Source of the DNA: a virus
DNA: 35,294 bases
Virus record (IMG/VR): IMGVR_UViG_3300031774_000068
Coordinates: 1 to 35,294 of that record
Reading direction: 5' to 3' (one strand)
Under the pieces are notes generated by a model. That model saw nothing but the letters and a program-made list of their open reading frames with translations, ran no database searches and was not told the origin of the DNA. Every line of letters begins with the position of its first letter. Position 1 is the stretch's first letter. The position numbers and the translations under genes were made by a program. This document shows positions 1-35,240 of the stretch, in pieces.

Positions 1-61
1 CAGTAAATTAATTGAATTAAATGGCGATAAAAGCTTGACGGTAACAGTTACCAATGTATAA
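1..61 (+). CDS. 3' end of the 72-residue last gene (duplicate of 35145-35205)
   Basis: This is the partial copy of the gene at 34987-35205, present because the contig ends overlap. Reading in the frame that ends TAA at 59-61 gives the C-terminal residues DKSLTVTVTNV. It differs from the right-hand copy by one codon (GGC in place of GAC). It is not an independent gene. Confidence 0.85.
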   Translation, partial: SKLIELNGDKSLTVTVTNV

Positions 62-62
62 T
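35..62 (+). promoter_or_regulatory. Early sigma70-like promoter with palindromic operator
   Basis: A -35 box TTGACG (35-40), a 16-bp spacer and a perfect -10 TATAAT (57-62) are visible. The spacer region carries the palindrome GGTAAC-A-GTTACC (40-52), placed where a bound repressor would block RNA polymerase. The same arrangement recurs at 33584-33611. The -35 and -10 lie inside the 3' end of the preceding gene, whose stop TAA overlaps the -10. The promoter would transcribe the genes from 97 rightward. Promoter assignment is strong by sequence; the identity of the repressor is unknown. Confidence 0.85.
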
Positions 63-96
63 GGACTCATCTTTTAGAGAGCTACGGAGAGTAAAA

Positions 97-288: not shown

Positions 289-308
289 ACAACCTAAACG
301 GAGTTACT

Positions 309-533
309 ATGAAATTTTCACCTGAGCTGCATTTTCACGACTACAAGTCATTACAGCAAGTTGAGCACGATGGCGACACTTGGGTAATCCTTGGTAGAGG
401 CCGAACTAACGATCAAGGCCAAACTTACTGTCATCTAGCCAGCACTACTCGCGCTAGAAAACAAAAAAACGGTTTTAATCCTATCCAAGCCACTGGCTGG
501 TTAAACATCAAACTAAACGGAGTTGAGCAATGA
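309..533 (+). CDS. Small early protein of unknown function
   Basis: A 74-residue protein beginning MKFSPELHFHDYKSLQQ. The ATG at 309 was preferred to an upstream in-frame ATG at 195 because it follows ACGGAG at a good distance and the upstream extension overlaps the previous gene and the GAAA hairpin. The stop overlaps the start of the ArdC-like gene by four bases (ATGA), indicating one operon with translational coupling. No domain recognised; the sequence is polar and beta-rich. It probably belongs to the early host-takeover set. Confidence 0.75.
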   Translation: MKFSPELHFHDYKSLQQVEHDGDTWVILGRGRTNDQGQTYCHLASTTRARKQKNGFNPIQATGWLNIKLNGVEQ

Positions 534-1819: not shown

Positions 1820-2005
1820 ATGGTGCGGTTAGATGCGAATGATTACGAAGTAGACGATTCAGTCATTGAGTTGATCAACGCATTCTCCGCTGCACTATTT
1901 GACAAAGACCGACTGGCACTGGATGACGTATACTATTTAGCCTGTGATAAAGTAAGCAGCAAGTGCTCATGTTATGAGCCAGTATGCATATGTGAGAGAA
2001 GATGA
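1820..2005 (+). CDS. Small acidic Cys-rich protein of unknown function
   Basis: A 61-residue acidic protein starting after GAGAGAG. The C-terminus carries a cluster of cysteines (KCSCYEPVCICERR plus one earlier Cys) that could bind zinc. Its stop overlaps the start of the small terminase gene by four bases, so it is translated with the packaging genes. No family recognised. Confidence 0.6.
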   Translation: MVRLDANDYEVDDSVIELINAFSAALFDKDRLALDDVYYLACDKVSSKCSCYEPVCICERR

Positions 2006-2421
2006 CCAGACCAACAATATTTAACGATGAGTTAGCAACCACTATCTGCCATCGCCTTACTATGGGCGAATCTGCACGACAAATCTGTCGCAGTCACGAT
2101 ATGCCATCCCTATCTACCCTTATGAAGTGGCTTACAGAGTCAGATAAAATCGAGTTTTCGGAGCAGTACGCGAGGGCCAGAGACTTACAGGCTGATTACT
2201 ACGCCGATCAAGTGGTCGATTTAGCTGATGAGCTCATAGAAGGATCTGATAATAATGAGATAGCTAGGGCCAAGCTACGCATCGATAGCCGCAAGTGGAA
2301 GGCCTCTAGGATGCAACCTAAAAAGTGGGGTGATAAGTCAGCTGTAGACGTAACATCGTCTGACCAGTCATTTAAGCCTACTGTGATCAATCTAGTCGCT
2401 GCTGAAGTGCCTGATGAGTAA
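2002..2421 (+). CDS. terS: Terminase small subunit
   Basis: A 139-residue protein directly before the large terminase and overlapping it by eight bases. The N-terminal half contains an HTH-type pattern (TTICHRLTMGESARQICR, then MPSLSTLMKWL), followed by the helical ADYYADQVVDLADEL and the segment RAKLRIDSRKWKASRMQPKKWGDK. That order is typical of small terminase subunits that recognise the pac/cos site and form a ring feeding DNA to the large subunit. Length is normal for the family. Confidence 0.9.
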   Translation: MTRPTIFNDELATTICHRLTMGESARQICRSHDMPSLSTLMKWLTESDKIEFSEQYARARDLQADYYADQVVDLADELIEGSDNNEIARAKLRIDSRKWKASRMQPKKWGDKSAVDVTSSDQSFKPTVINLVAAEVPDE

Positions 2422-3694
2422 TGTCGCCACAATCAACCTACCGCCAAAGCTAGTTAAGCTATTCGATGGTGAGGCCCGATATCGATGTGCATGGGGCGGT
2501 CGAGGATCAGGTAAGACTGTTAGCTTTGCATTGATGACAGCTGTCAGAGGTTATATGTGGGGTATGGCTGGCCGTAAGGGGCAGATACTCTGTGGTCGTG
2601 AGCATTTGAACAGCCTAGAAGAATCTTCGTTAGAAGAGGTTAAATCGGCTATCAGGAGCTGTGACTTCTTGGTCGATTACTATGAGATAGGTGAGAAGTA
2701 CATCCGATCTAAGGATGGCAACATCAGCTACACGTTTACTGGTTTGCGCCGCAACCTAGATTCCGTTAAATCTAAAGCCAAGATACTTTTGTGTTGGGTT
2801 GATGAGGCTGAAGGTGTAAGTGAAACTGCATGGTCTAAACTGATTCCTACAGTGCGTGAAGAGAACTCAGAGATATGGGTGACTTGGAATCCAGAGAACA
2901 AGAACTCATCGACTCATCGCCGATTCAGGCAGAATACCCCAGAGGGGCTAAAGATAACTAACGTCAACTGGCGTGATAATCCGTTTTTCCCGAAAGTATT
3001 AGAGCTCGCTAGACAAGAGGATCTTGAGCTGCGGCCAGAGTCTTATGACCATATTTGGGAAGGTGACTTTTTAGTACACGTTGACGGTGCTTACTACATG
3101 ACAGAGATGCGTGATGCTAGGCAGGGTGGAAGGGTTAGTGGTGTCCCATATGACCCAGCATTGCCAGTAACGACTGCATGGGATTTAGGTGTGGGTGATT
3201 CTACATCGATCTGGTTTGCTCAGTTTTATGGCAAAGAGGTTAGGCTGATTGATTACTACGAAAGCAGCGGTGTTGGCCTCGATCACTATGTTCAGCTACT
3301 CAACAGTAAGGGTTACACCTACGGCAATCATATCCTACCGCACGATGTCAGGGTGAGAGAGCTAGGCACTGGCAAGTCACGCTTAGAGACTTTAGGCACG
3401 CTAGGTGTTAGGCCAATCACTATTGCGCCGCAGCTAATGGTTGACGATGGAATACAGGCGGCCCGATCAATGATAGCCAGCTGCTGGTTTGATGAGATTA
3501 AATGCTCCAGAGGTATAGATTGTCTGGGCCAGTATCACAGAGATTATGACGAAAAGAATCAGACGTTCAAGGGCAATCCTGTGCACGACTGGGCATCACA
3601 TGGCGCAGATGCATTTAGGTACTTAGCAACAGGTCACAAGCCAGATCGAAACTGGGGCGAACCAATAAGAAGAAACATCAGAGGTGTGGTATAA
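2414..3694 (+). CDS. terL: Terminase large subunit, PBSX type
   Basis: A 426-residue packaging ATPase/nuclease. The N-terminal ATPase domain has a P-loop WGGRGSGKT at residues 27-35 and a Walker B with catalytic acid (ILLCWVDEAEG, about residues 123-133). The C-terminal RNase H-like nuclease domain starts near AWDLGVGDS (about residue 255), with further acidic positions in HDVRVREL and HDWASHGADAFRYL. Family knowledge: it translocates DNA into the prohead through the portal and cuts the concatemer. The stop codon overlaps an extended -10 motif (3687-3698). Confidence 0.95.
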   Translation: MSNVATINLPPKLVKLFDGEARYRCAWGGRGSGKTVSFALMTAVRGYMWGMAGRKGQILCGREHLNSLEESSLEEVKSAIRSCDFLVDYYEIGEKYIRSKDGNISYTFTGLRRNLDSVKSKAKILLCWVDEAEGVSETAWSKLIPTVREENSEIWVTWNPENKNSSTHRRFRQNTPEGLKITNVNWRDNPFFPKVLELARQEDLELRPESYDHIWEGDFLVHVDGAYYMTEMRDARQGGRVSGVPYDPALPVTTAWDLGVGDSTSIWFAQFYGKEVRLIDYYESSGVGLDHYVQLLNSKGYTYGNHILPHDVRVRELGTGKSRLETLGTLGVRPITIAPQLMVDDGIQAARSMIASCWFDEIKCSRGIDCLGQYHRDYDEKNQTFKGNPVHDWASHGADAFRYLATGHKPDRNWGEPIRRNIRGVV

Positions 3695-3698
3695 TCGG
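3687..3698 (+). promoter_or_regulatory. Extended -10 motif TGGTATAATCGG (late promoter candidate 1)
   Basis: TG-G-TATAAT followed by CGG, with no recognisable -35. The same TGNTAWAATCGG pattern recurs at 8770, 16062 and 23809. It lies over the terL stop and just before the gene at 3716, with a start point expected about seven bases after the -10. Extended -10 promoters can work without a -35. Sequence match clear, activity inferred. Confidence 0.65.
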
Positions 3699-3715
3699 CG
3701 TTTTTTGGGGATGCT

Positions 3716-3898
3716 ATGAGCTTATACAAAAACATTGCAAAGAAGAAGGCCAGAATAAAGGCTGGATCTAAAGAAACTATGCGAAAAAAAGGAGCTAAGG
3801 GTGCGCCGACTGATAAGGCTTTCAAGCAGGCTGCAAAGACAGCGAAAAAACCTAAAGCTAAGAAAAAAGCAGCTAAACGGTCAGGAAAAAAATACTGA
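3716..3898 (+). CDS. Small Lys/Ala-rich basic protein
   Basis: A 60-residue, extremely basic protein: MSLYKNIAKKKARIKAGS at the N-terminus and a Lys/Ala-repeat tail resembling histone H1 C-termini. Its N-terminal half resembles small proteins I recall next to terminase genes in marine podovirus genomes; none has a known function. It follows the extended -10 motif with GGGG as ribosome-binding site. A DNA-condensing or nucleic-acid-binding role is plausible from charge alone. Stop and next start overlap. Confidence 0.75.
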   Translation: MSLYKNIAKKKARIKAGSKETMRKKGAKGAPTDKAFKQAAKTAKKPKAKKKAAKRSGKKY

Positions 3899-4188
3899 TG
3901 CCAAAGAAAAAAGACTCCAAACTGTCTAATGCTGGTGTATCAGGTTATAACAAACCAAAGCGCACTCCAAACCATCCTAAAAAGTCTCATGTTGTTGTTG
4001 CTAAAGAGGGCGATAAAACAAAGACAATTAGGTTTGGTGAGCAGGGAGCAAAGACAGCTGGCAAGCCCAAAAAAGTTGAGTCTGAAGCAATGAAGAAAAA
4101 GCGTGCCTCATTCAAGGCTCGTCATGGTAAGAATATATCTAAAGGTAAAATGTCTGCGGCTTACTGGGCCGACAAGGTGAAGTGGTAA
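3898..4188 (+). CDS. Conserved basic phage protein (DUF6321-like)
   Basis: A 96-residue, Lys-rich protein. It contains RTPNHPKKSHVVVAK, then KTIRFGEQGAKTAGKP, then FKARHGKNISKGKMSAAYW near the C-terminus. These blocks recur in a conserved phage family that I believe is catalogued as DUF6321; the number is from memory. Function unknown. It overlaps its neighbours by one base on each side, between the other basic protein and the polyvalent protein, so it is probably a virion or DNA-associated product. Confidence 0.75.
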   Translation: MPKKKDSKLSNAGVSGYNKPKRTPNHPKKSHVVVAKEGDKTKTIRFGEQGAKTAGKPKKVESEAMKKKRASFKARHGKNISKGKMSAAYWADKVKW

Positions 4189-7100
4189 TGGCATTAGGCG
4201 CAAGAGCACAGGGTATACTTGATCTCATACTCGACCCTAAGAAATATGACGATTCATTTGAGCTCAGAAATATACCAAAGGTTAAGCCAAGAGATGAGTA
4301 TGGCGTTCCTATTGTTGAGGGCCGACCCGATGATGCGCCTACAATCACTCTCAGCGATTTAGAAGGCTACCCATACCTATCAACAATGTCTGATAGAACG
4401 GCGGCAGGCGGCCAGCTGGTTGGTATAGGCGACAAGGATTTAGCATATCCGATTGACTTGACTGGCGGTCAGGATTTCATGCGCAACAATCCAAACTTAT
4501 GGGCATCTGGAACTAGCCCTGTCAACCAGATGATACAGGCTGGTCAAAATCTAAAAAAAGAATATGGTAGAGATCCTGTTCTAATCCCTTGGCGAATGTC
4601 GGCATCAGGCAGCGATTTCTCTGGTCAGATGACAGGCGGCACGATGATGTCTTATGCATCGGCCAATATGCCTGCTGCGGTCAAAAAGCAGTTAGATGCT
4701 GATATCAGGGCGCGTGTGCCAGATTTTGTCGGTGTCGATAATCCATTAGCACAAGAGCAATTCGCTAGACTGCCAGACGCTACTAGAAAGTTTATTCAGC
4801 AGCAGATAATGGATAAAGATTATCGTAGCCAAGGCGGTATATCTCTGCCACAGGCAAGATTGGCTATTGCTGACCCATCACAGTTAGATGCGCAAGTTAT
4901 GGGATTGCAAAATGTAGGCTTGCTAGATGTTGATGCTGGAAACTTGTCTGGTCAAGGCAATATCATCTATCCTGACGCTGTAGGCGGCGAGTTTATAGGG
5001 CGGCTTGATACTGATGCTACTCTGATAGATCTTGACCCTACAGCTCAATACAGGGCTACATCTGGCGGTATTTATGGTCGCCCACTTAGTGTAGGCGATG
5101 ATGGGCCGAGGACTGAGTTTGGCCAAATGAGGCGAGCAGCGGAGATTGCTCCGTATGGCGGCTTAATCGATGATAAGTTGCTGCGAAATCTTGAGTCGAA
5201 GGGAATAAAGGTTAGTGCCAATCCGTTTATGACTCTAGTCGGTGTTGGTTTAGCTGGCGGAGCTTTATTTGGCAGTGAAGAGGCAGATGCTGGTATTTTG
5301 TCAGGCACTTACAAAAATGTGTCGCAAAACATTAACCAACTTGATAAGGTTATCGACCGACTGAATAGTGGCCAGCCACTACGTTCAGGGGATCTATTAT
5401 ACGGTAGTGAGGGAGCAACATTCCGAACGCCACAATTTGAAACGGAAGCGAGAGTATTCGATGAGCTTAGAAACCAATCCCAAACCTACGGAGAGCCAGT
5501 CTTCGACAGGGCAACTATCGGAAGTAGAATTAATATTGCAGGAAGAGAACGAGTTAATGGAATTGCTCGGTTTTCCATGCCATCAGCCTATCAAACGGAG
5601 CTCGGAAGGCTAAATCTAAACAGTCCAGATATGATCGAGATTAGCCCAGACCAAGTGGGTGCTGATTTATTTTCTGAGCGTATCAATGCAGCGAAAAAAT
5701 CTAATCGGTTTGGCGCAGCTGTTGAGGCGTATGACCCAGACGCATACAAAGGTATGCGGTTATTCCTGAGCGAAGATGGCGGAGCTGGGTTTGCATTAAA
5801 GCCAGATGGTGATTTAGTTAGTGCGTTCAGCGATGGATCTACAAAGGGTGTAGCATCGCAGTTGTTGCTGTTAGGTATCGAGCAGGGTGCTAAAAAGTTA
5901 GATGCATTCGACACAATCTTGCCAGAACTATATTCAAAAGCTGGATTCAGAGAGACAAGTCGACTAAAATTCGACCCAGAACAAGCACCAGCAGATTTTG
6001 ATCCAGCTGTATTTAGTAGGTTTAATGAGGGTCAGCCTGACGTATCGTTTATGGCCCTAGATCGCGGCAGAGCAAGGCCAGTAGAGCCAATCTATGCTGA
6101 CGACTATGCTGATGCAATAGCTCGTCAACAGGCAGGTGTTAGCAATCTAGATGATCTCAGATTAATTCCTGAAGGTGATCTATCTATAATGCCTGCGCCT
6201 CAGCGATTCTTTGATCAAGATAATAAAGCGTTTAAACCATTCCTATCTGACATTCCATTTGAGTCTGGCGGTCGATACTTATCTATGGGTGAAAACCGTA
6301 GAGACTTAACAGGCGCATTTCCAAAGACTGCATCGATATCTATTGATCCTACTGGCAAGCCAACATTTGCTGTGTCTGGCGAGTCGCGCAAGGGAGTACC
6401 GCCAACTGAAGGCCGCACAATCAAGACAAACCTATTTAAGAAGAGTGCAGGCTGGAACTGGGAGCAAGTGCCAGAGGGCTTTCCAAAAGACCCTGACAAA
6501 GGCTTTCCGATTGTCTCTGTTGAAGACAGCACTGGTCACTATTACTCACTATCCACTGATTACCCAGAGGGCGTGAGCCTACAAAGAAACCCATCGACAA
6601 CTGAGCCTAGATTACGACCAGAGACTAAAGGTTTCATTGAGTACGGTAATGTGGTTGGTACGATCCGAACTCGTAAAAGCAAGGCTCATCCAAAAGGCAA
6701 AATCCACAACGTATACGACAAGATAACTGTACGCAATGTTGCGCCAGCTGTTATTGCTGGATTTGCTGCTGCGGGCCAGTCAGAGGATGCTGATGCGTCT
6801 TATGTTGGTATTGTTTCTAAGCTTGGGTTTGGCCGACAAGATTTGCTAAATACTGCAAAGCGTATGGAAGAGCAGGGTGATAGCCCAGAAGAAATATGGT
6901 CAATGACTGGTTGGGAAAAGAATCAGGCTGATGGTGAGTGGCGCACAGAGCTACCTAACACTAACACCAAGATCAATTTCGATAAGCTTGTAGATGATGG
7001 TGTGATGAATGATCTTCCCACACTTCTAGGTGCTGGCGATAAAAAGAAAATAAAAGTAGATAGCTTTGCAGAATACAAGCTAAAAGATTTAGTTGATGAC

Positions 7101-8750
7101 CCAGAATTGCTTGATCAGTATCAACCAAGAGAGCTGTTTAGGATCGCTGACGATAGATTTGCTGCTGACTACTATGACCAGCCTGCTCCGCCTTTAAGCT
7201 CGGAACAAGCCAAGCTGATAGAAGAGTATGGCGAGCCAAGATACAAACCAGATTTTTTTGATACTGATTCTAATCAAAGAATTTATGGATCTAGGCAGAC
7301 AGGCCCGCTTGGCGATATACGAGTTGTATTTGACCCTAACCTAGATGCTGGTGAAGGCTACTGGAATAGCGACTTTAACACTATTGGTATAGGCAATAAC
7401 TCTACTCCAGAGGATGTAAGAGGGACTTTACTGCACGAATTACAGCACGCAATCCAATCTAGAGAAGGTTTTGGTGCTGGCATGAACGCAGATTATATCG
7501 AGCAATTGCAGACTGCTGCTGCGGAGTTTGATATTAGAGGCGGCCAAGCCGAAATAGACAGGCTAACTAAACTGGCTGACGAATACACTCAGGCTTATGC
7601 ATCAGGCGATATTAAAAACGTAACATTAGAGCAGGCAGGTGCTGCTGTTGATGCACAAGAAATGATTGGTAGACGTGCACTTGATGAGAGAATGCGCGAG
7701 ATAGGATCAAAAATAGACCCAGAAGCTGATGGCTATGGATCTCCGTTTGCTATCTATAAAAATACAGCTGGCGAGGTTGAAGCTAGAAATGTAGAGCAGA
7801 GAGATCGAATAAGACGATTAAATTCTGGCCAAGCCTCACTCGGTGAGTTATTCCCTAATAGGCCGCCAGTACCATATGTTGCCAAATTTGATCCCGATGA
7901 GACTCCAGCATTCGCATCTGAGCGTTATGTAGGGGGTAAAGACCAGTCACGACAACTATTCACGCGAGGCGATTTATTAGAAGAAACTATTGGGACAGAC
8001 TTAGATCCTAACGACTTTTTGTCTGGCACACAGTTAAGTAAGCGTTATGTAGATAATATACGCAACGCGCTGAAATCGACTAATAATATGACTACAAGCC
8101 AAGCTATTATAAAGGCAGATGATATTATAGATAAAGCTCCGCCAATATTGAGCACTAAATCAGCATCGAATCTATCAAATTATGACCCATTCAAAGATCA
8201 ATCTGAAATGCCGTTCGATATTTATAATCGCCCAATGTCAAAAATGGAAGCGAATTTAACGGTGGATGTGTTTAGGTCTGTTGCTAGAGGGTTTGAAGAC
8301 GCTATAAAAATGATCGGTGGCGGTGCTGTCAGTACAGTAGAGCCAGAATCTGGCGCGTTTAAGGCCGTCATGGATGTGCCAAGTGTGTTCGGCGAATATA
8401 ATGAAACCACAAAGGAATTAACAACTAAAGCAGGAACTCAATTAGGCAAGGTTCTTAGGCCTGCACTAGATTATGTTTTGAATGCGCGTTTTGTGGGCAG
8501 CCTTAACCCATTTAAAGAAAATCAGTCTCTAAAGGAAAAGTTGATAGAGGATATGACGAGAATATCTGATCAATACAATTCTATGCCTGACTTTGTAAAG
8601 GAAGAAGTTGCGCCAAGAATAGGTTATGGAACATTGGCTGCACTGGGAGCTTTGACATTTTATTTACCATCTCCAAAGCCTAAGCCAGACGTAAAAATAC
8701 CACTGAAGCCAGACGACCCTGTACCACAAGGCTTATTAAGCGCAAATTAA
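4188..8750 (+). CDS. Giant polyvalent protein (GNAT-like plus LPD23-like HELQH domain)
   Basis: A 1520-residue protein, the largest in the genome. The ATG at 4188 (AGGTGA upstream) was preferred to GTG at 4182. Residues about 1-360 are a conserved-looking block of unknown fold. About 480-600 resemble the N-acetyltransferase-like domain of phage polyvalent proteins (MRLFLSEDGG, then LDAFDTILPELYSKAGF). About 885-1210 resemble polyvalent domain LPD23: MEEQGDSPEEIWSMTGW followed by the zinc-protease-like HELQHAIQSREGFGAG (HELQH at 1083-1087). A hydrophobic stretch lies near residue 1490. Such proteins are thought to enter the host with the DNA and counter defences; that role here is inference. 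Confidence 0.85.
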   Translation: MALGARAQGILDLILDPKKYDDSFELRNIPKVKPRDEYGVPIVEGRPDDAPTITLSDLEGYPYLSTMSDRTAAGGQLVGIGDKDLAYPIDLTGGQDFMRNNPNLWASGTSPVNQMIQAGQNLKKEYGRDPVLIPWRMSASGSDFSGQMTGGTMMSYASANMPAAVKKQLDADIRARVPDFVGVDNPLAQEQFARLPDATRKFIQQQIMDKDYRSQGGISLPQARLAIADPSQLDAQVMGLQNVGLLDVDAGNLSGQGNIIYPDAVGGEFIGRLDTDATLIDLDPTAQYRATSGGIYGRPLSVGDDGPRTEFGQMRRAAEIAPYGGLIDDKLLRNLESKGIKVSANPFMTLVGVGLAGGALFGSEEADAGILSGTYKNVSQNINQLDKVIDRLNSGQPLRSGDLLYGSEGATFRTPQFETEARVFDELRNQSQTYGEPVFDRATIGSRINIAGRERVNGIARFSMPSAYQTELGRLNLNSPDMIEISPDQVGADLFSERINAAKKSNRFGAAVEAYDPDAYKGMRLFLSEDGGAGFALKPDGDLVSAFSDGSTKGVASQLLLLGIEQGAKKLDAFDTILPELYSKAGFRETSRLKFDPEQAPADFDPAVFSRFNEGQPDVSFMALDRGRARPVEPIYADDYADAIARQQAGVSNLDDLRLIPEGDLSIMPAPQRFFDQDNKAFKPFLSDIPFESGGRYLSMGENRRDLTGAFPKTASISIDPTGKPTFAVSGESRKGVPPTEGRTIKTNLFKKSAGWNWEQVPEGFPKDPDKGFPIVSVEDSTGHYYSLSTDYPEGVSLQRNPSTTEPRLRPETKGFIEYGNVVGTIRTRKSKAHPKGKIHNVYDKITVRNVAPAVIAGFAAAGQSEDADASYVGIVSKLGFGRQDLLNTAKRMEEQGDSPEEIWSMTGWEKNQADGEWRTELPNTNTKINFDKLVDDGVMNDLPTLLGAGDKKKIKVDSFAEYKLKDLVDDPELLDQYQPRELFRIADDRFAADYYDQPAPPLSSEQAKLIEEYGEPRYKPDFFDTDSNQRIYGSRQTGPLGDIRVVFDPNLDAGEGYWNSDFNTIGIGNNSTPEDVRGTLLHELQHAIQSREGFGAGMNADYIEQLQTAAAEFDIRGGQAEIDRLTKLADEYTQAYASGDIKNVTLEQAGAAVDAQEMIGRRALDERMREIGSKIDPEADGYGSPFAIYKNTAGEVEARNVEQRDRIRRLNSGQASLGELFPNRPPVPYVAKFDPDETPAFASERYVGGKDQSRQLFTRGDLLEETIGTDLDPNDFLSGTQLSKRYVDNIRNALKSTNNMTTSQAIIKADDIIDKAPPILSTKSASNLSNYDPFKDQSEMPFDIYNRPMSKMEANLTVDVFRSVARGFEDAIKMIGGGAVSTVEPESGAFKAVMDVPSVFGEYNETTKELTTKAGTQLGKVLRPALDYVLNARFVGSLNPFKENQSLKEKLIEDMTRISDQYNSMPDFVKEEVAPRIGYGTLAALGALTFYLPSPKPKPDVKIPLKPDDPVPQGLLSAN

Positions 8751-8769
8751 AGCTATTTTTGAAAAAAAA

Positions 8770-8781
8770 TGGTAAAATCGG
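8770..8781 (+). promoter_or_regulatory. Extended -10 motif TGGTAAAATCGG (late promoter candidate 2)
   Basis: Second copy of TGNTAWAATCGG, in the 50-base gap between the polyvalent gene and the adaptor gene. It is followed by a T-run, as in the copy at 3687. A start near 8785 would give a short leader containing GTGAGAG before the ATG at 8801. No -35 is visible. Confidence 0.6.
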
Positions 8782-8800
8782 TTTTTAAAGTGAGAGTAAA

Positions 8801-9442
8801 ATGGCGATATCTACATTAGCAGAATTAAAGACGACAATAGCTGACTTTTTGAACAGGTCAGATTTAACTTCTGTCGTGCCTACCTTTATTGATTTAGCTG
8901 AATCACAAATCAATCGAGATGTGCGTCATTGGCGTATGGAAAACAGGGCCACAACGACTTTAACTTCTCAATACTTGACTCGGCCATCTGATTGGGTGCA
9001 AACCCAAAGAATCAGAATAAACGGCGGGAAAGATAATTTAGAGCTGCTAAGTAGTGCAGCAATGGATGAGCGCAGAGCATACGCAGATAATATAACTGGC
9101 GTGCCTGATGGATTTCGACATATTGAAGATCAATTCGAGTTTTTCCCTTCTCCAAATGCTGACTTACCATGTGAGTTAGTATATTTGCAAAAAATACCTG
9201 CTTTGACAGATTCTAATACTACTAACTGGCTGCTAACGTATGCGCCAGATATTTATTTGTACGGATCTTTGCTGCATACCGCACCATATCTATCTGATGA
9301 TCCGAGAATCGCTGTCTGGGCGCAGTTGTACTCTGCGGCAGTGCAAAGGCTCAATGAAGAGTCAGAGCAGGCAGATGAGAGCGTGTCAGGTTTGAGAATG
9401 AGGCGCAGAGGTTTAAATACTGGATCGACAAGGTACAACTAA
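8801..9442 (+). CDS. Head-tail adaptor protein (SU10 type)
   Basis: A 213-residue protein with the pattern of podovirus adaptor proteins: N-terminal helices (LAELKTTIADFLNRSDL, then FIDLAESQINRDVRHWRME), a beta-rich middle (RPSDWVQTQRIRI, then GFRHIEDQFEFFP) and a C-terminal helical part (YLYGSLLHTAPYLSDDPR). Family knowledge: adaptors form a ring under the portal and connect it to the tail. The ribosome-binding site is GAGAG before ATG. It opens the tail module, after the extended -10 motif. Assigned from pattern. Confidence 0.8.
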   Translation: MAISTLAELKTTIADFLNRSDLTSVVPTFIDLAESQINRDVRHWRMENRATTTLTSQYLTRPSDWVQTQRIRINGGKDNLELLSSAAMDERRAYADNITGVPDGFRHIEDQFEFFPSPNADLPCELVYLQKIPALTDSNTTNWLLTYAPDIYLYGSLLHTAPYLSDDPRIAVWAQLYSAAVQRLNEESEQADESVSGLRMRRRGLNTGSTRYN

Positions 9443-9822
9443 TGGCCCTTTCAAATTATCTGGACAGAAAGGTATTGGAGCACGTTTTGGGAGTCCAAGC
9501 GTATACACCTGCCAGTAACCTATATCTTGGTTTGTTTGTTGGTAATCCAGAGTCTGGTGGTACAGAGGTGTCTCAATCATCTTATTATCGGCGCGGCATA
9601 TCTTTCAATGTAGTTACAGATAACTTAGCGACTAACGCCGCAGATATTGATTTCATAATTAATGAGTCTTTTGGGTTAATCGATTATGTTGGAGTGTTTG
9701 ACGCATTGACTGGTGGAAATTTATTAATAAGTGCTCAGACAGGCTCACCATTAAATGGTAGTGACACTCCACAAGTTTTTTTAAGAGCTGGCGCACTATC
9801 AATCAGGCTAAATAACGGATGA
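9442..9822 (+). CDS. Tail-associated protein, Gp80-like family
   Basis: A 126-residue beta-rich protein. MALSNYLDRKVLEHVLG, then NLYLGLFVGNPESGGTEVS, then YVGVFDALTGGNLLISAQ follow the pattern of a small phage family usually annotated as tail fibre protein (Gp80-like). The start overlaps the adaptor stop by one base. Probably a virion tail component; the exact position is unknown. Confidence 0.75.
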   Translation: MALSNYLDRKVLEHVLGVQAYTPASNLYLGLFVGNPESGGTEVSQSSYYRRGISFNVVTDNLATNAADIDFIINESFGLIDYVGVFDALTGGNLLISAQTGSPLNGSDTPQVFLRAGALSIRLNNG

Positions 9823-10046
9823 GGTATAGCCAAGGCCCATACAATTATAGTATTTACCAAGGTGCGTTAGCGTTTAGGGATTTTATTGCATCATCTACTA
9901 CGGTATCAACGGCTAGTGTAAATATTGTTGTGTTATGGACAGATGAGGTAGTTGCGCCATCTACATGGGTAGATCAACAGGTTAGTGCAGCAACTTGGGT
10001 AACACAGACAACTCCAACTTCAACATGGAAAACAATTAGACAATAG
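9819..10046 (+). CDS. Small tail-module protein of unknown function
   Basis: A 75-residue protein starting with an ATGA overlap with the upstream gene. It is rich in Thr, Ser and Val with a repeated tryptophan pattern in its C-terminal half (PSTWVDQQVSAATWVTQ, then TSTW), spaced about ten residues apart. Such Trp-Val repeats suggest beta-strands packing into a trimer or a strand-exchange segment. No family recognised; position implies a tail or fibre-attachment role. Confidence 0.65.
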   Translation: MRYSQGPYNYSIYQGALAFRDFIASSTTVSTASVNIVVLWTDEVVAPSTWVDQQVSAATWVTQTTPTSTWKTIRQ

Positions 10047-10054
10047 GTGAAACA

Positions 10055-10894
10055 ATGGCGAACACAACCAACTATTCTTTTAATCTGCCAACAGTAGGTG
10101 CGAACTTAGATTCGTGGGGCGGCTTATTAAATAATAACTGGACATCAGTCGATAGTTTACTAGGTGGCGGAACTGCCATAACTGGCATCGATATTAATGG
10201 TGGCACAATTGACGGCACTGTCATTGGCGGAACAACTACAGCAGCCATCACAGGAACAACTGTAACAGCCACTGAATTTGTCGGCCCACTTACAGGTAAT
10301 GTGACAGGAAATGTTACAGGAGATGTTACAGGAGCTCTAACTGGCAATGCATCTACTGCAACTCAACTAGCTACACCTAGAGCTATTGCTGTTACATCTG
10401 GCCCAATCACAACATCAAGTTTAAATTTTGATGGCTCTGGTGACGTAGCCTTAACTTCACTACTTAACTATGACTCTGTATGGCCAATAAATTCAATATA
10501 CATATCTACTAACGCAGCAAACCCTTCCACATATTTTCCGTTTACAACTTGGGAAGCGTTCGGTGAGGGTAAGGTTATTATAGGTGCGGGTACACACACT
10601 GACACCAGAAGTGAATCGAAAACATTTGTTGGTGGTGACACTGGTGGTGCATATCAGCATTTGTTAGTTGAGTCTGAAATACCAACACATAACCATGAGC
10701 CAGACTCACAAAGAAACCATCTTTTAAGGACAAATGTTAATACATCTGATGGCGGATTTGATAGCACCAGTGGAGAACCAGATTTAAGTGCACAAGGTAA
10801 CGCTGAGATACAAGATTTCGGTGGCGATACTGCGCACAATAACACACAACCATATATAGCAGTTTATATGTGGAAACGAATAGCAAATCCATAG
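10055..10894 (+). CDS. Tail fibre protein with collar-like C-terminal domain
   Basis: A 279-residue fibre protein. The N-terminal about 45 residues (YSFNLPTVGANLDSWGGLL, then VDSLLGGGTAI) match the fibre-attachment segment also present in the next gene. Residues 81-100 are tetrapeptide repeats (GNVT GNVT GDVT GALT GNAS), a usual fibre shaft element. The C-terminal part (PINSIYISTNAANPSTYFP through EIPTHNHEPDSQ to HNNTQPYIAVYMWKR) has the tail-collar/baseplate Gp10-like domain with its conserved THNH and NNTQPYI motifs. Likely a receptor-binding fibre. Ribosome-binding site AGGTGA. Confidence 0.88.
   Translation: MANTTNYSFNLPTVGANLDSWGGLLNNNWTSVDSLLGGGTAITGIDINGGTIDGTVIGGTTTAAITGTTVTATEFVGPLTGNVTGNVTGDVTGALTGNASTATQLATPRAIAVTSGPITTSSLNFDGSGDVALTSLLNYDSVWPINSIYISTNAANPSTYFPFTTWEAFGEGKVIIGAGTHTDTRSESKTFVGGDTGGAYQHLLVESEIPTHNHEPDSQRNHLLRTNVNTSDGGFDSTSGEPDLSAQGNAEIQDFGGDTAHNNTQPYIAVYMWKRIANP
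10295..10354 (+). repeat. In-frame 12-bp tandem repeats in tail fibre gene
   Basis: Five consecutive 12-base units, each encoding G-(N/D/A)-(V/L/A)-(T/S), lie in frame with the fibre gene. The first three differ at one to three positions, so the array expanded fairly recently and could vary in number. Repeats of this kind set the length of fibre shafts. Confidence 0.8.
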
Positions 10895-29782: not shown

Positions 29783-30412
29783 TTAATTAGTTAAGTGGTC
29801 GGCCCATGATGTGTCTTGTAGCCGAGTCATTGGATCTGCTTTTTTAGTTTTAGCGTTATCAGTGTCTCTACGCTCCCATGTTCTAATGCACGCTTTCCAG
29901 TCCTTCATTTTTGTTTTACCGACCATCCAGCCTTTCGATGCATACCAGTCATGAAAATGCTGGCCATCTATTTTATTTTTTCTGTGATTACAATAATCAA
30001 TTATATCTCCCACTTCAGGCGGCGTGAAACGCTGCTTAGATGTAGTATTAACTGTATTATTATTATGTAGTATTACGTTAGAAGTTTCCTTCTTGGGGGT
30101 ATGGAAGTTTTCTTCTATAGCCTCTGGAACATTTGTTCCTGCCAGTGTGATTTTACGTTCTACGGTCACACCTTTTTGGCCTCGTTTTTGGTACACATCG
30201 ATATAACCCCTAGACTCTAACTGGCTAATCCACTTGCTTACCGATCTATTAGTGGTTGAATACAATTCAGCAAAATACGCATTAGTGGCCCAGCAATAAC
30301 CTTTTTCGTTAGTTAATGCAGTGATCTCTCCGTATAATAATTTTGCATTGGGTGTCAATTCTTTGTCATACCTGACGTTTGCAGGGATAATTGCGTAATA
30401 GCTTTTTGTCAT
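29783..30412 (-). CDS. Replication initiator, DnaD/lambda O-like
   Basis: A 209-residue protein. The N-terminal about 95 residues form a winged helix typical of phage replication initiators (KELTPNAKLLYGEITALTNE, then CWATNAYFAELYSTTNRSV, SKWISQLESRGYI). An Asn/Thr-rich linker (about 115-127) follows, then a C-terminal domain with HFHDWYASKGWMVGKTKM and DWKACIRTWERR, as in DnaD-type and O-type initiators that recruit helicase. The linker DNA holds AT-rich 11-bp direct repeats. It starts by ATGA overlap with the HTH gene, with ACGGAGAG as ribosome-binding site. Confidence 0.85.
   Translation of the reverse strand: MTKSYYAIIPANVRYDKELTPNAKLLYGEITALTNEKGYCWATNAYFAELYSTTNRSVSKWISQLESRGYIDVYQKRGQKGVTVERKITLAGTNVPEAIEENFHTPKKETSNVILHNNNTVNTTSKQRFTPPEVGDIIDYCNHRKNKIDGQHFHDWYASKGWMVGKTKMKDWKACIRTWERRDTDNAKTKKADPMTRLQDTSWADHLTN
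30040..30075 (-). repeat. Candidate origin iterons inside initiator gene
   Basis: Two perfect 11-bp direct repeats ATGTAGTATTA (+ strand, 30040-30050 and 30065-30075) are 25 bases apart, with a third partial GTATTA between them (30054-30059) in an AT-only stretch. They encode the linker of the initiator protein. Lambda-type origins place iterons and an AT-rich region in the same position of gene O. Confidence 0.5.
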
Positions 30413-30627
30413 TTTCTCTCTCCGTAGTTAACAAATTGTGAAAGTGGTATGCCGAGGCCTTTACAAATCCGTTCTAATGTTTCTAGTGTCGGGTTGTTGT
30501 TTACACCACTTCTAAGTGCAGATAATGCAGATGCGCTAATACCTGTTTTTTCTTCTAACTCTTGATTGTTGTAACCCATGACAGCCATCGATATATGCAT
30601 AGCCTGTTTAACATTAAATTTATTCAT
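30409..30627 (-). CDS. Xre/Cro-family HTH regulator
   Basis: A 72-residue regulator read from ATG 30627, preceded by AGGTGA; a longer ORF upstream begins in the AT-rich promoter region and was discarded. The Xre HTH spans NQELEEKTGISASALSALRS, followed by NNPTLETLERICKGLGIPLS, the usual third and fourth helices. Such proteins repress or balance early transcription. Its stop overlaps the initiator start, so it controls or is controlled with replication. Its operator is unproven; GGTAAC-N-GTTACC at the two early promoters is a candidate, though that palindrome is not seen in its own promoter region. Confidence 0.88.
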   Translation of the reverse strand: MNKFNVKQAMHISMAVMGYNNQELEEKTGISASALSALRSGVNNNPTLETLERICKGLGIPLSQFVNYGERK

Positions 30628-30754
30628 TTGCTCACCTATTAAAAATAGCACCTTATCATAATAATAATATATCATCAATAAATAAGTTTTGGTTGCATTT
30701 ATGCGGCTATAATGTAAAATGCATAGCTCAATCAATCACATTTAAGGAAATACA
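30628..30754. promoter_or_regulatory. Divergent AT-rich intergenic region with + strand promoter
   Basis: A 127-base AT-rich gap between the minus-strand regulator operon and the plus-strand recombination operon. On + a perfect -10 TATAAT lies at 30708-30713, with only a weak -35 (about GTTTTG, 17 bases upstream), and the inverted repeat GCAT-TT-ATGC (30695-30704) overlaps the -35/-10 spacer. On the minus strand TTGATG and TATTAT boxes can be drawn but not decided. This is the natural switch point between the two early operons. Confidence 0.65.
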
Positions 30755-30949: not shown

Positions 30950-31156
30950 ATGTTAGTTTTATCTAGAAAGGCTGGTGAAAAAATAATCGTCAATGATGGC
31001 GAGATAGTTTTCACGCTTGTCTCTATACAAGGCGGCCAAGCAAAAATAGGCATCGATGCGCCGTCATCAGTGCCAATACATCGCGAGGAAATCTACAAGA
31101 AAGTTGTGTCGGATGGTCGCAAAAATAAAATTTCAGGAGTTAACAATGATAAATAA
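30950..31156 (+). CDS. csrA: Phage-encoded CsrA/RsmA RNA-binding regulator
   Basis: A 68-residue protein of standard CsrA length. It begins MLVLSRKAGEKIIVNDGEIV, continues GQAKIGIDAPSSVPIHREEIY and has a short variable tail. Residues needed for RNA binding are kept: Leu4, Arg6 and the Arg of HREEIY (residue 45, equal to Arg44 in E. coli). CsrA dimers bind GGA in leaders and change translation or stability. The gene sits in an early operon, AGGAG upstream, overlapping ssb by 11 bases. It could act on host mRNA, phage leaders, or both. Confidence 0.93.
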   Translation: MLVLSRKAGEKIIVNDGEIVFTLVSIQGGQAKIGIDAPSSVPIHREEIYKKVVSDGRKNKISGVNNDK

Positions 31157-31541
31157 TATCACTTTTTCAGGGCATTTAGGTCGTGATGCTGAAGTAAGGC
31201 ATACCCCAAAGGGCGATGCAGTATGTAGTTTTGCTGTGCCGTGTACGTCTGGTTGGGGCGATAAAAAGAAGACCGTCTGGGTTGAATGTTCTATGTGGAG
31301 AGAGCGTGGTGAGAAGTTAGCACCATACCTAACCAAAGGTACGCCAGTTGTGGTTTCTGGTGAGTTTTCTATGTCAGATCCATATACTGATAAGAAAGGC
31401 GAAACGCGAGTTAATGCTCGCTGTAATGTTAATCAGATACAGCTAGGAAAGTCGTCTGATGCGCAGCCTGTGGCTAAAGCACCAGTGGCAAAACCAGCTG
31501 ACCCTGTTGATAACTTCTATGACGACTCGATACCATTTTAA
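31146..31541 (+). CDS. ssb: Single-stranded DNA-binding protein
   Basis: A 131-residue SSB from ATG 31146 (AGGAG upstream; the frame extends upstream but inside csrA). The OB fold starts INNITFSGHLGRDAEVRHTP, with WVECSMWRERGEKLAPYL and GTPVVVSGEFSM as core strands. An Ala/Pro linker leads to an acidic tip DDSIPF, which in bacterial SSBs recruits repair and recombination enzymes. It precedes rad52 and is expected to supply ssDNA handling for recombination and replication. Confidence 0.93.
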   Translation: MINNITFSGHLGRDAEVRHTPKGDAVCSFAVPCTSGWGDKKKTVWVECSMWRERGEKLAPYLTKGTPVVVSGEFSMSDPYTDKKGETRVNARCNVNQIQLGKSSDAQPVAKAPVAKPADPVDNFYDDSIPF

Positions 31542-31543
31542 CT

Positions 31544-31642
31544 ATGACTAAATCAGATGATGAAAGGTTGTTGGAATCTCTGGAGCGTTTAGCAGACGCT
31601 CTGGAGTACATTGTTGAACGATTACGGAAAGAGGAATTGTAA
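31544..31642 (+). CDS. 32-residue leucine/glutamate helix protein
   Basis: A tiny ORF between ssb and rad52, beginning at 31544 two bases after the ssb stop and ending one base into the rad52 start. It encodes an amphipathic helix (ERLLESLERLADALEYIVER) able to form a coiled coil. The tight packing with overlapping stop and start supports a real gene. Function unknown. Confidence 0.6.
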   Translation: MTKSDDERLLESLERLADALEYIVERLRKEEL

Positions 31643-32310
31643 TGATAGATTGGAATGCACTTTTAGAGCCATTTCACGCATCAGAAGTAAAGTGGCGTGT
31701 AGGATCTACGACTAAAGATAAGTCTAAAGGTACGGCACTGGCTTATGTCGATGCTAGAACTGTTATGGACAGGCTGGATAACGTAGTAGGGCCAGAGAAT
31801 TGGCGAGACAGTTATCATGAGACTGCGACCAACAGAATCATTTGCGAGCTGGGTGTTTGGGTTGGCGACAAGTGGGTGACAAAATCTGATGGCGCAGGAT
31901 CAACCACATTTGAAGGTGAGAAGGGCGCAATAAGTGACGCATTTAAGAGGGCGGCGGTTAAGTTTGGCATTGGTAGATATTTATATGAGCTGCCAGCAGA
32001 GTGGCGGCCGCTGAAATCTGGTAAGTATTTTGAAACTCCGCCAGATATAAGCAATTATGTTACTAACAAGCGCAACACATCCGCATATAGGTACGGCTTG
32101 GCATTGCAGGAGTGCTTAGAAAGCATTATTTGCATTAAAGAGAACATCATCAACGGTAACCTGCAAGTTGCGGCAGAGGCTTATTTTGAGCTGTCTGAAG
32201 ATGACAAGATGGCCCTTAATAAAGCACCTACTCGTGGTGGTATTTTCACTACTGAAGAGATGCAAGTCATTCGTAGCACTCAGTTTAGAGAGGCGTTTTA
32301 TGGATCGTAG
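31642..32310 (+). CDS. Rad52/Rad22-family single-strand annealing protein
   Basis: A 222-residue phage Rad52-type annealase. The N-terminal about 160 residues follow the family: WNALLEPFHASEVKWRVGS, then DARTVMDRLDNVVGPENW, then GAISDAFKRAAVKFGIGRYL. It anneals complementary single strands, often with SSB, to join phage DNA ends into concatemers. Length is normal for phage versions that lack the eukaryotic C-terminus. AGAGGA precedes the start. It leads the Rad52-NinB-NinG block. Confidence 0.92.
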   Translation: MIDWNALLEPFHASEVKWRVGSTTKDKSKGTALAYVDARTVMDRLDNVVGPENWRDSYHETATNRIICELGVWVGDKWVTKSDGAGSTTFEGEKGAISDAFKRAAVKFGIGRYLYELPAEWRPLKSGKYFETPPDISNYVTNKRNTSAYRYGLALQECLESIICIKENIINGNLQVAAEAYFELSEDDKMALNKAPTRGGIFTTEEMQVIRSTQFREAFYGS

Positions 32311-33184: not shown

Positions 33185-33587
33185 GAAAGAAGCGTTAGAG
33201 CTCCTACAGAAGCTTGTGCGGCTAAAAGCAGCTGACGACAACGGATATTGCTCGTGTGTTAGTTGTGGCGTGGTGAGGCAATGGAATGACGCTATGCAGG
33301 GCGGTCATTTTGTGGCTAAAGGTAAAGGTGGCAAGAATATGTGGGCCTTGGTCGAAGAAAACGTACACCCACAGTGCGCAGGCTGCAATGGTTTTGGTAT
33401 GCGATTTGGGAACGCAGAAACTGCCTATACGCTATACATGATCGATATGTATGGTCGTGAAAAAGTCGATGAAATGATGGAAAAAAATATATCATCTAAA
33501 CTTAACAGGATCGAGCTCGAAGATTTCATTAGCGACTGGAAAGAACAGATTAACGATAATTTAAAAAGAATTGGGCAAAAGTGTTGA
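33147..33587 (+). CDS. ninG: NinG (Rap)-like recombination endonuclease
   Basis: A 146-residue NinG. The zinc module is visible: CSCVSCGVVRQWNDAMQGGH, then HPQCAGCNGFGMRFGN, and GHFVAKGKGG. Lambda NinG (Rap) cuts recombination intermediates such as D-loops and Holliday junctions. It ends in an RIGQKC tail whose stop TGA is part of the -35 region of the second early promoter. It overlaps the Zn-ribbon gene by 38 bases. Confidence 0.92.
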   Translation: MPARKPKTVQKLRKEALELLQKLVRLKAADDNGYCSCVSCGVVRQWNDAMQGGHFVAKGKGGKNMWALVEENVHPQCAGCNGFGMRFGNAETAYTLYMIDMYGREKVDEMMEKNISSKLNRIELEDFISDWKEQINDNLKRIGQKC

Positions 33588-33611
33588 CGGTAACCGTTAC
33601 TCGTGTATAAT
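33584..33611 (+). promoter_or_regulatory. Second early promoter with palindromic operator
   Basis: TTGACG (33584-33589), 16-base spacer, TATAAT (33606-33611). The spacer region has GGTAAC-C-GTTAC (33589-33600), the same half-sites as at 40-52 with a different centre base and an imperfect last base. It overlaps the ninG stop and starts transcription of the genes from 33652. The leader down to the start codon is closely like that of the copy at 35. Confidence 0.85.
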
Positions 33612-33657
33612 GATCCCATCTTTTAGAGAAACACCACTACGGAGAGTAAAAATGAAC
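33584..33657 (+). repeat. Duplicated promoter-operator-leader cassette
   Basis: From the -35 to the start codon plus one codon, this stretch matches 35-102: TTGACGGTAAC-N-GTTAC, TATAATG, CATCTTTTAGAGA, CTACGGAGAGTAAAAATGAAC. It is six bases longer in the leader here. The identity covers operator, 5' leader and ribosome-binding site and stops at the coding region, so the regulatory cassette rather than the gene was copied or kept. Confidence 0.85.
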
Positions 33658-33828
33658 GTCAATCAAATAGTCAAAGGCAAACATGCTGGTACTTTCGTAA
33701 TTTTAGGTTTTTTCAAACAGACAGACGGCGAAGAGTGGGCGCAATTAAAAGCAGTTGACCCACAAGATCATAGTCGGGTTGGTGCTGGCGAGTTAGCGTT
33801 ACCTGTAAGACTTTTAGAAACTATTTAA
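33652..33828 (+). CDS. Small early protein, unknown function
   Basis: A 58-residue protein from ATG 33652 after ACGGAGAG; the longer frame from 33571 runs through the promoter and was discarded. It begins MNVNQIVKGKHAGTFVILGF and has a short beta-rich body. First gene of the second early transcript, in the same position as the gene at 97. No family recognised. Confidence 0.75.
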   Translation: MNVNQIVKGKHAGTFVILGFFKQTDGEEWAQLKAVDPQDHSRVGAGELALPVRLLETI

Positions 33829-33834
33829 TTTAAT

Positions 33835-33850
33835 TGGGCCGAAAGGCCCA
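33835..33850 (+). promoter_or_regulatory. GAAA-capped RNA hairpin in second early operon
   Basis: Six-base perfect stem TGGGCC/GGCCCA closed by a GAAA tetraloop, no U-tract, directly before the ACGGAG ribosome-binding site of the next gene. Same form and place as the hairpin at 275-288, though the stem bases differ, which suggests the structure is selected rather than the sequence. Confidence 0.72.
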
Positions 33851-33869
33851 CTAACTACGGAGAGAAATA

Positions 33870-34190
33870 ATGTCTAATATTTATAAGTATAAGCGGAAAG
33901 AATTAGAGCCTTGGACTGCAACAGAGTGCGAAGGCTCTTTAATTAGCGAGTGGATTGGCGGATCTCAAGCGCAGATTGTCCTTGACTGGAATGAGTATCT
34001 GGTCGATGACTTAACAGAAAGCGAGTTAGGCTTTATTATCAAGACTGGCTTGAAGCACCTTAACTCAAATGGTGTTGTTTATGATGTGATATCAAGCGTT
34101 ATTGGTAAAACGCTAGAAGAGTTTGTTTGCAGGTATCACGAAGAAATCGACCAAACTTTTAACTTTAATAACCCAAATTACGGAGAATAA
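33870..34190 (+). CDS. Early protein of unknown function
   Basis: A 106-residue acidic protein after ACGGAGAG. It begins MSNIYKYKRKELEPWTATEC and is mixed helix/strand with an acidic C-terminus (YHEEIDQTFNFNNP). No motif recognised. Second gene of the early transcript, one base from the next start. Probably a host-takeover factor by position. Confidence 0.72.
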   Translation: MSNIYKYKRKELEPWTATECEGSLISEWIGGSQAQIVLDWNEYLVDDLTESELGFIIKTGLKHLNSNGVVYDVISSVIGKTLEEFVCRYHEEIDQTFNFNNPNYGE

Positions 34191-34191
34191 T

Positions 34192-34476
34192 ATGTCTGAT
34201 TTACTTAAAGAAATTTTCGATGCTGGCGCAAATGGTCATGATGCATTTGTTGCTAAACTCAATGAGGTTGATGCGGAGCTGTCACGCGGCGATGCATTAT
34301 CTGCCGAGGCCGAAGATGGTTGGTCAGAGCACAATCTCAACGTGGCTATAAAGCAGCGCATGGAGTCTGGCTACTATCCGCAGCGTCATCTTTTCTTAAT
34401 CGATGTTTATGAGTCTGCTGCTAAAATTTGGGATGATTCTCACATTGAAGCAGATGAAGAAGAGACACCTTTTTAA
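34192..34476 (+). CDS. Acidic early protein of unknown function
   Basis: A 94-residue strongly acidic, helical protein from ATG 34192 after ACGGAG; the longer frame from 34123 overlaps the previous gene. It begins MSDLLKEIFDAGANGHDAFV and ends with an acidic EADEEETPF tail. DNA-mimic-like composition is noted but no known inhibitor family is recognised. It overlaps the oxygenase gene by one base. Confidence 0.72.
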   Translation: MSDLLKEIFDAGANGHDAFVAKLNEVDAELSRGDALSAEAEDGWSEHNLNVAIKQRMESGYYPQRHLFLIDVYESAAKIWDDSHIEADEEETPF

Positions 34477-34997
34477 TGGGTGTTCAAATCTTCGATAATG
34501 TTTTTAGCAGAAATTTAGCTAAAGAGTTTTGCAGCAAGGCTGCGATGTGTAGATATCATTTTTACCACAGAGCACATAAAGATGTCCCGATTTTTCATTG
34601 GCATCGAGACAAGTGCGATCTAGCCTTTGCAATCCATGCGCAGCTGCCGTCATCAATAACTAATGATCACACATTGGTTAGGCATTACGGCAATGCGCAC
34701 ACTGCTGGAATAAACCCATCGATTCACAGAGATGCGCCATTATCTGCTAGTGGTGCAGCATTTACTGCCCTGTATTACTATGAGATGAGCTGGAAAGATA
34801 GCTGGGGTGGCGGTACTACCTTCTATGATGAAGAGAAAAACGTAACAGAAACTGTGGCTTATAAAGGTAACAGGCTTGTAATGTTTGATGGATCACAGCT
34901 GCACGCTGCTGACGAAATATCAAAAGACTGTGCATACCTGCGGCCAGTTGCAGTGCTTAAATACAGTGCCGATCTTAGGAGATACGATGGATCTTAA
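34476..34997 (+). CDS. 2-oxoglutarate/Fe(II)-dependent oxygenase
   Basis: A 173-residue enzyme of the prolyl-hydroxylase-like type. Iron ligands His84 and Asp86 (in NPSIHRDAPLS) and His143 (in FDGSQLHAADE), and Arg156 (in LRPVAVLKY) for 2-oxoglutarate, are all present; WGGGTTFY and GNRLVMFD are the usual core strands. Such phage enzymes hydroxylate proteins or nucleic acids; substrate unknown. It sits among early genes rather than structural ones, so a host or DNA target is more likely than a virion one. ATG overlaps the previous stop. Confidence 0.88.
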   Translation: MGVQIFDNVFSRNLAKEFCSKAAMCRYHFYHRAHKDVPIFHWHRDKCDLAFAIHAQLPSSITNDHTLVRHYGNAHTAGINPSIHRDAPLSASGAAFTALYYYEMSWKDSWGGGTTFYDEEKNVTETVAYKGNRLVMFDGSQLHAADEISKDCAYLRPVAVLKYSADLRRYDGS

Positions 34998-35205
34998 GTG
35001 CTACGAAACTTACTGCGAATGCTGTGAAGAGCCTTGCCTACCGATGACTATTAGGTTTGAGATGGGTGAGGCTATTTCGTATGGCAATCCGCATGAGACT
35101 GAAGATTCCTATATTGTGTCTGGGTGCTGTAGCTACAAAGTGGTCAGTAAATTAATTGAATTAAATGACGATAAAAGCTTGACGGTAACAGTTACCAATG
35201 TATAA
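34987..35205 (+). CDS. Small Cys-rich protein after the oxygenase
   Basis: A 72-residue protein from ATG 34987, overlapping the oxygenase gene by 11 bases; a longer upstream frame lies inside that gene. The N-terminus has a cysteine cluster (CYETYCECCEEPCLP) and a later GCCSYK, giving a possible zinc or disulfide site. The 3' end carries the -35, operator and -10 of the next early promoter, so part of its protein sequence (DKSLTVTVTNV) is shaped by regulatory DNA. Function unknown; the oxygenase may be its partner (inference). Confidence 0.75.
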   Translation: MDLKCYETYCECCEEPCLPMTIRFEMGEAISYGNPHETEDSYIVSGCCSYKVVSKLIELNDDKSLTVTVTNV

Positions 35206-35206
35206 T
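35179..35206 (+). promoter_or_regulatory. Early promoter, duplicate of the copy at 35-62
   Basis: Same TTGACG, 16-base spacer with GGTAAC-A-GTTACC, and TATAAT as at 35-62, present twice only because the contig ends overlap. In the real genome it is one promoter. Confidence 0.85.
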
Positions 35207-35240
35207 GGACTCATCTTTTAGAGAGCTACGGAGAGTAAAA

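Follow-up and report, generated by a model that had tools for sequence, protein, structure and literature searches.

A marine bacterial virus (an IMG/VR record of 35,294 bases, the whole of which is called the window here) encodes a product that is, by its sequence, clearly a genuine CsrA family member, and ACGGAG leaders stand before seven of its early and replication genes. Our preferred reading, to which we give a probability of about one half, joins an active CsrA aimed mainly at the host, a Shine-Dalgarno repeat that has spread with small gene cassettes, and promoters that carry a candidate site for a repressor. Seen directly were the match to the CsrA family, the distribution of the leaders, the duplication of a promoter module and the absence of one cassette from a relative (L002), in which two leaders are fused. 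CsrA would probably be made early, from a csrA-ssb-erf operon divergent from the XRE repressor candidate and rep, and would most likely act mainly on host mRNAs. The ACGGAG leader would be a start-associated repeat that works as a Shine-Dalgarno sequence; it would have been copied, and may have served again as the junction at which cassettes of small early genes are exchanged. Early timing would come mainly from two copies of a promoter whose palindromic candidate operator the XRE repressor probably binds. The sequence-only reading of this DNA had suggested that the phage CsrA times its own early translation. Control of the leaders by CsrA is partly supported, most of all for rep, and comparison with other phages lends it weak support.

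The ends of the window match over 150 bases with one mismatch, and this terminal repeat indicates that the genome is probably complete. Genes for portal, head and packaging functions occupy approximately 2.0-26 kb, and an exonuclease follows, as far as 29.4 kb. The replication and recombination side holds rep and an XRE-type regulator on the minus strand and, divergent from these and in order, a 60-aa open reading frame, csrA, ssb, an Erf/Rad52-like gene and NinB- and NinG-like genes, past which lie small genes with no assigned function and an anti-restriction gene (Table 1). The likely real start of the XRE candidate is the ATG at 30627, and in translation the end of its reading frame reads NYGE where it crosses the rep leader. 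The anti-restriction protein, which we take to be ArdC-like, had no relatives in our protein scan. Elsewhere, the product of 34476-34997 carries conflicting labels (2OG-Fe(II) oxygenase in Pfam, DNA endonuclease V in PHROG), and 4182-8750 encodes a 1522-aa polyvalent protein with an LPD23 domain.

Table 1. Genes, leaders and promoter modules of the window discussed in the text.
Feature	Position	Strand	Basis or remark
csrA, 68 aa, CsrA-family RNA-binding regulator	30950-31156	+	PF02599, phrog_9500, conserved residues
rep, replication initiation protein gene	29783-30412	-	phrog_19658, phrog_270; HTH_36
XRE/Cro-type HTH repressor candidate	30409-30735	-	Pfam HTH_26/HTH_3
Single-strand DNA binding protein gene (ssb), downstream of csrA	31146-31541	+	phrog_44
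Erf-like/Rad52-type annealing protein gene	31642-32310	+	phrog_1097
Anti-restriction protein gene	530-1381	+	phrog_7245
ACGGAG, leader of gene 97-267	84-89	+	copy at 35228-35233 in terminal repeat
ACGGAG, leader of gene 309-533	298-303	+	
ACGGAG, leader of anti-restriction gene	517-522	+	
ACGGAG, leader of gene 33652-33828	33639-33644	+	
ACGGAG, leader of gene 33870-34190	33857-33862	+	
ACGGAG, leader of gene 34192-34476	34180-34185	+	
ACGGAG within rep leader AACTACGGAGAG, start 30412	30420-30425	-	best CsrA-target candidate
ACGGA upstream of Erf/Rad52-like gene	31624-31628	+	reads ACGAA in L002
Sigma70-like promoter TTGACG-N16-TATAAT with palindrome GTAACCGTTAC (candidate operator), 5' of 33652 leader	33584-33611	+	read from sequence, aligned to copy
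Second promoter/operator module copy, 5' of 97 leader	35179-35206, also 35-62	+	

The csrA product matches Pfam CsrA with 75.9 bits (cut-off 27) over model positions 1-51 of 53, its PHROG family is labelled 'CsrA-like regulator', and it matches the sequences of solved CsrA chains at E 7e-12; an AlphaFold2 model from a two-sequence input had a pLDDT of 46.8. The earlier statement that the protein keeps its RNA-binding residues was borne out by an alignment of the window, a relative and E. coli CsrA, in which L4, R6 and H44-R45-E46 within the HREEI block are invariant and I43 replaces V. L4 and R6, in beta1, are presumably RNA-contact residues of CsrA. The VHRE block is described as contacting RNA in the plasmid protein RsmQ (PMC9928087). 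In a diverged relative, L017, the CsrA encoded at the equivalent place is 64% identical, and the gene order rep-XRE-csrA-ssb-erf is common to both. The leader of csrA itself reads AAGGAG in the window and TTGGAG in L017, and is thus not conserved. We gave no weight to ANGGA in this leader; it is found in 51 of the 64 viral csrA leaders listed (counted by eye, one start being doubtful) and does not discriminate, because AAGGAG is also the best Shine-Dalgarno sequence. An Rfam scan for a CsrB-like RNA gave only a sub-threshold L20 leader, and the 12 CsrA loci from a genome scan (planctomycetes and others) held nothing pointing to the host. Two planctomycete genomes (G001 and G005, behind loci L159 and L167) have 10 and 11 CsrA-family matches respectively, and phage F116 (L158) has a second 'CsrA-like regulator' gene (3032-3238) among its structural genes in addition to the early one at 20001.

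ACGGA had been placed at the starts 97, 309, 530, 33652, 33870, 34192 and, on the minus strand, 30412, and all seven were found there. ACGGAG lies within 20 nt 5' of the start in 7 of the 21 early genes and in none of the 33 late genes (Fisher p 0.0007; p 0.004 with three similar leaders merged to one); the leaders of starts 32300 and 27044 have no ACGGA. ANGGA of any kind is likewise commoner at early starts (10/21 vs 4/33, p 0.009). Since AAGGA is also an ANGGA site, the contrast proposed earlier between ACGGA and the AGGA of structural genes is not the CsrA contrast. A further ACGGA reported upstream of rad52 is present, but the likely Shine-Dalgarno sequence of that gene is a downstream AGAGGA, and the change to ACGAA in L002, a 95%-identical relative, ruled it out as a functional site. 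The sequence CTACGGAGAG, which is common to four of the seven leaders, occurs five times in the genome against 0.07 expected from base composition, four times at these starts and once inside the 4182-8750 open reading frame.

Leaders 97 and 33652 are duplicates of one promoter module. The alignment between the modules at 33575 and 35172 takes in the promoter, the operator and the leader, and in both the order is TTGACG, palindrome GTAACNGTTAC, TATAAT and then the leader. Such a promoter with its palindromic candidate operator could give early timing without CsrA. Scanning viral contigs for the promoter returned two, L002 and L153, and the leaders of L153 differ from ACGGAG (0 pattern matches), so that the transcriptional module can occur apart from the leader. 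L002 is without the 33652 gene, and its promoter leader runs straight into a 33870-type leader at CCAACTACGGAGAG, which is what leaders acting as recombination junctions would predict.

The duplicated leaders and the missing cassette would also suit a reading with no regulation at all, in which ACGGAG is an ordinary Shine-Dalgarno variant multiplied by module duplication and csrA is unrelated to it. The caution that ACGGAG is such a variant was justified by its use in phages that lack csrA (four ACGGAG leaders in Mu, three in D3112). We nevertheless consider this reading unlikely, as the rep leader lies on the opposite strand and is no obvious duplicate past about 12 nt, yet shows the same 10-12 nt match, and as conserved CTA and GAG positions extend past the Shine-Dalgarno core. 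The calculated pairing with the anti-Shine-Dalgarno sequence is stronger for the ACGGAG leaders than for late genes (mean -7.0 vs -5.4 kcal/mol, p 0.012), a point in favour of our preferred reading. TACGGAG and TTCGGAG both give -7.1 kcal/mol, so the A before CGGAG adds nothing, and the C costs 2.7 kcal/mol compared with an A (TAAGGAG, -9.8 kcal/mol). With a superfluous A and a C that weakens pairing, ribosome binding alone fails to explain the exact leader sequence. This counts against our preferred reading, as do the conservation of the rep leader past the core and the occurrence of csrA with ACGGAG leaders in an unrelated record (L036).

The rep leader is letter-perfect in both L002 and L017, even though its flanks, the csrA leader and the erf leader all differ in L017, where Rep is 63% identical and csrA is also present; its conservation reaches beyond the Shine-Dalgarno core. 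Among 79 rep loci with a start, ACGGAG lies upstream of rep in three, namely L002, L017 and L102, and the last was set aside as chance, given its longer distance and unrelated context. Within the stretches examined of the 80 loci retrieved by Rep, csrA occurs only in the L002 and L017 contigs. The orthologous 33870 and 34192 leaders are conserved in L002 only. Only the leader of rep combines conservation in a diverged relative, a multi-site layout and co-occurrence with csrA.

These properties suit the reading in which phage CsrA binds ANGGA in phage mRNAs and represses rep first, CsrA from the divergent operon thereby limiting or timing replication and the small early genes. This narrower form of the self-timing idea we regard as possible, if on the doubtful side. 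CsrA targets have been outlined as having A(N)GGA at the Shine-Dalgarno sequence, three or more sites and no fewer than two pairs within 60 nt, and Kulkarni et al. list ACGGA as a primary site (PMC4066749); our own implementation of that outline took three sites as the minimum, with two pairs or more spaced by 10-60 nt. In all seven ACGGAG leaders A(N)GGA lies at or close to the Shine-Dalgarno sequence, but six of the seven fall short of the multi-site criteria, which one late gene passes (early 1/21, late 1/33). The exception is rep, which passes in the window, L002 and L017, although its second upstream site is shifted in L017. The sequence of the rep leader may also be constrained by the end of the XRE coding region (NYGE), which runs across it. 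No GGA-loop hairpins, a known preference of CsrA that is not part of the published algorithm, were obtained on folding the seven leaders and that of csrA. The 33870 leader was the only one with a low folding z (-2.05), and this came from an upstream GAAA-loop hairpin with no GGA in the loop. Linear ACGGA is reported to be bound only transiently by RsmQ and quickly released (PMC9928087). The claim of self-timed early translation thus gains from the conserved rep leader and from L036, and loses by the failing leaders, the missing GGA-loop hairpins and the erf site lost in L002.

L036 (IMG/VR 3300018405_000067) came from a scan of viral contigs by leader alone, which returned 41 stretches, namely L002, L017 and 39 others, and it is the sole csrA record among the 39. 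It has eight ACGGAGN4-10ATG sites in 22.5 kb, by our own reading the highest count per kb among the records above 20 kb in that scan, with six or more ACGGAG leaders across 2000-10396. Its csrA stands directly upstream of an ACGGAG leader, with CTACGGAGAGAAAAAATG just downstream of the gene. Its gene content is unrelated to that of the window, and in its CsrA VHREE is changed to VDREE, the H of the HREE block being replaced by D. The record would thus be an independent combination of csrA with ACGGAG leaders, and as one case it gives independent support. That a self-directed CsrA regulon on ACGGAG leaders, holding back rep and small early genes, arose independently in at least the window lineage (window, L002 and L017) and L036 is nevertheless doubtful in our estimation.

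Viral loci with and without csrA were also compared more widely. Near-duplicates were removed (csrA+ from 81 to 66, csrA- from 103 to 40); L034-L072 and L153, which had been fetched by pattern, were excluded from the controls, and the csrA+ group was counted without L036, found leader-first, and without the window lineage (window, L002 and L017). The csrA-less status of a viral locus refers to the stretch examined and not to the whole virus. Gammaproteobacterial prophage controls were dropped, with terminases in only 2/143 and 16/229 genomes. The first comparison counted 60 of 385 genomic ACGGAG as leaders in 64 csrA+ loci and 6 of 92 in 40 csrA- loci, which differ in G+C (0.53 vs 0.40). The second added 13 csrA-less and five csrA+ isolate phages and dropped the leaders of csrA itself; its 122 loci (69 csrA+, 53 csrA-) gave 61/417 and 24/241, the latter figure speaking for a plain Shine-Dalgarno role. 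Relative to other NCGGAG leaders, ACGGAG was enriched in csrA+ loci with an odds ratio of 2.53 (1.71-3.62; 2.0 without the three richest loci) and in csrA- loci with 1.69 (0.99-2.81), but on label permutation the two groups did not differ significantly (p 0.11 for the odds ratio, 0.064 for the rate). We therefore rejected a general association of csrA with ACGGAG as proof, on account of these p values and the G+C mismatch. The sites are not clearly denser near csrA (odds ratio 2.8 near vs 1.97 far), which also speaks against a phage CsrA that regulates phage genes. Two csrA+ loci have six (L184) and seven (L202) ACGGAG leaders, each with its own flanking consensus, compared with a maximum of four in csrA- loci; their start-associated repeats are CGAACGGAGACC (L184, 1770-6593) and ACGGAGGGCACG (L202, 5190-12076). 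A PHROG search with ten leader-gene products (six from L184, two from L202, the rest from L036) matched none.

The leaders could instead be tuned to the CsrA of the host, as a brake released by titration or as a sponge, with the phage CsrA competing with it or replacing it. The entire CsrA family recognises ANGGA (PMC9928087; PMC4066749), and the presence of csrA in phages is reported to correlate with its presence in their hosts (PMC8450108). Chromosome stretches, however, show no clear ACGGAG preference (gammaproteobacterial set 3/61 leaders, odds ratio 1.06; planctomycetes 8/124, odds ratio 1.98, p 0.12). We hold tuning to host CsrA to be very unlikely.

Phage csrA genes are widespread; 85 of 50,697 phage records matched CsrA in our search, and Sobrero and Valverde (2020) list the gene in 30 phages (PMC7366521). 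The proteins are thus no novelty, and the usual view is that they act on the host; suppression of CRISPR-Cas by phage RsmA/CsrA was proposed by Campa et al. (2021; PMC8450108). The only infection phenotype in the literature searched is that of PTXU04, in which knock-down of csrA gave smaller plaques (PMC11879866), and our searches of open-licence PubMed Central papers turned up no published case of phage mRNAs as targets of a phage CsrA, which does not prove that there is none. The CsrA/RsmA proteins of F116, phi297, VvAW1, PSTCR8lys and PTXU04 resemble that of the window in being small and often in lying in an early or recombination neighbourhood, and share about 35-47% identity with it among the matches listed. 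The csrA neighbours in VvAW1 (a replication initiator, a pfam13443 regulator, exonucleases and SSB) are like those of the window. Unlike the window, the five csrA+ isolate phages compared, which do not include PTXU04, have no repeated ACGGAG set, with ACGGA leaders at 2-4 of 39-53 genes each.

The host-directed part of our preferred reading leans on RsmQ, encoded by plasmid pQBR103 and so not by a phage, a CsrA relative on a mobile element that binds GGA/ANGGA including ACGGA and is reported to affect chiefly host proteins (PMC9928087). Without RsmQ, 784 host proteins were altered (581 up, 203 down) against 16 of 733 plasmid proteins (PMC9928087), and a similar bias may apply to the phage CsrA, the data being from the plasmid and not from this phage. 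If the rep leader is truly targeted, it would be a small, concrete case of a phage CsrA controlling phage rather than host genes; if not, it would show that regulons are over-predicted when ribosome-binding sites are matched to CsrA motifs without multi-site, structural and csrA-less controls.

The repeat itself is most like the start-associated sequences (SAS) and their extended forms (ESAS) of cluster K mycobacteriophages, short repeats over the ribosome-binding site that occur only in the non-structural half of the genome, with conserved bases past the Shine-Dalgarno sequence and, in some, an upstream inverted repeat (PMC3203893). The cluster K SAS is a 13-bp sequence, GGGATAGGAGCCC, in 11-19 copies and conserved at many genes across relatives (PMC3203893), while the seven copies of the window are looser, conservation as far as a diverged relative is seen for rep only, and its TACGGAGAG does not fit the 13-bp consensus. 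Whether a phage product binds the SAS is left open in that account (PMC3203893), and CsrA control of the present leaders, if true, would assign a protein to a start-associated leader repeat. GC-rich hairpins with GAAA-type loops stand in the gap between stop codon and ACGGAG leader at 276-289 (before 309) and 33837-33850 (before 33870), and at about 8937-8952 in L036 (before 8971), and recall the inverted repeats of the extended start-associated sequences.
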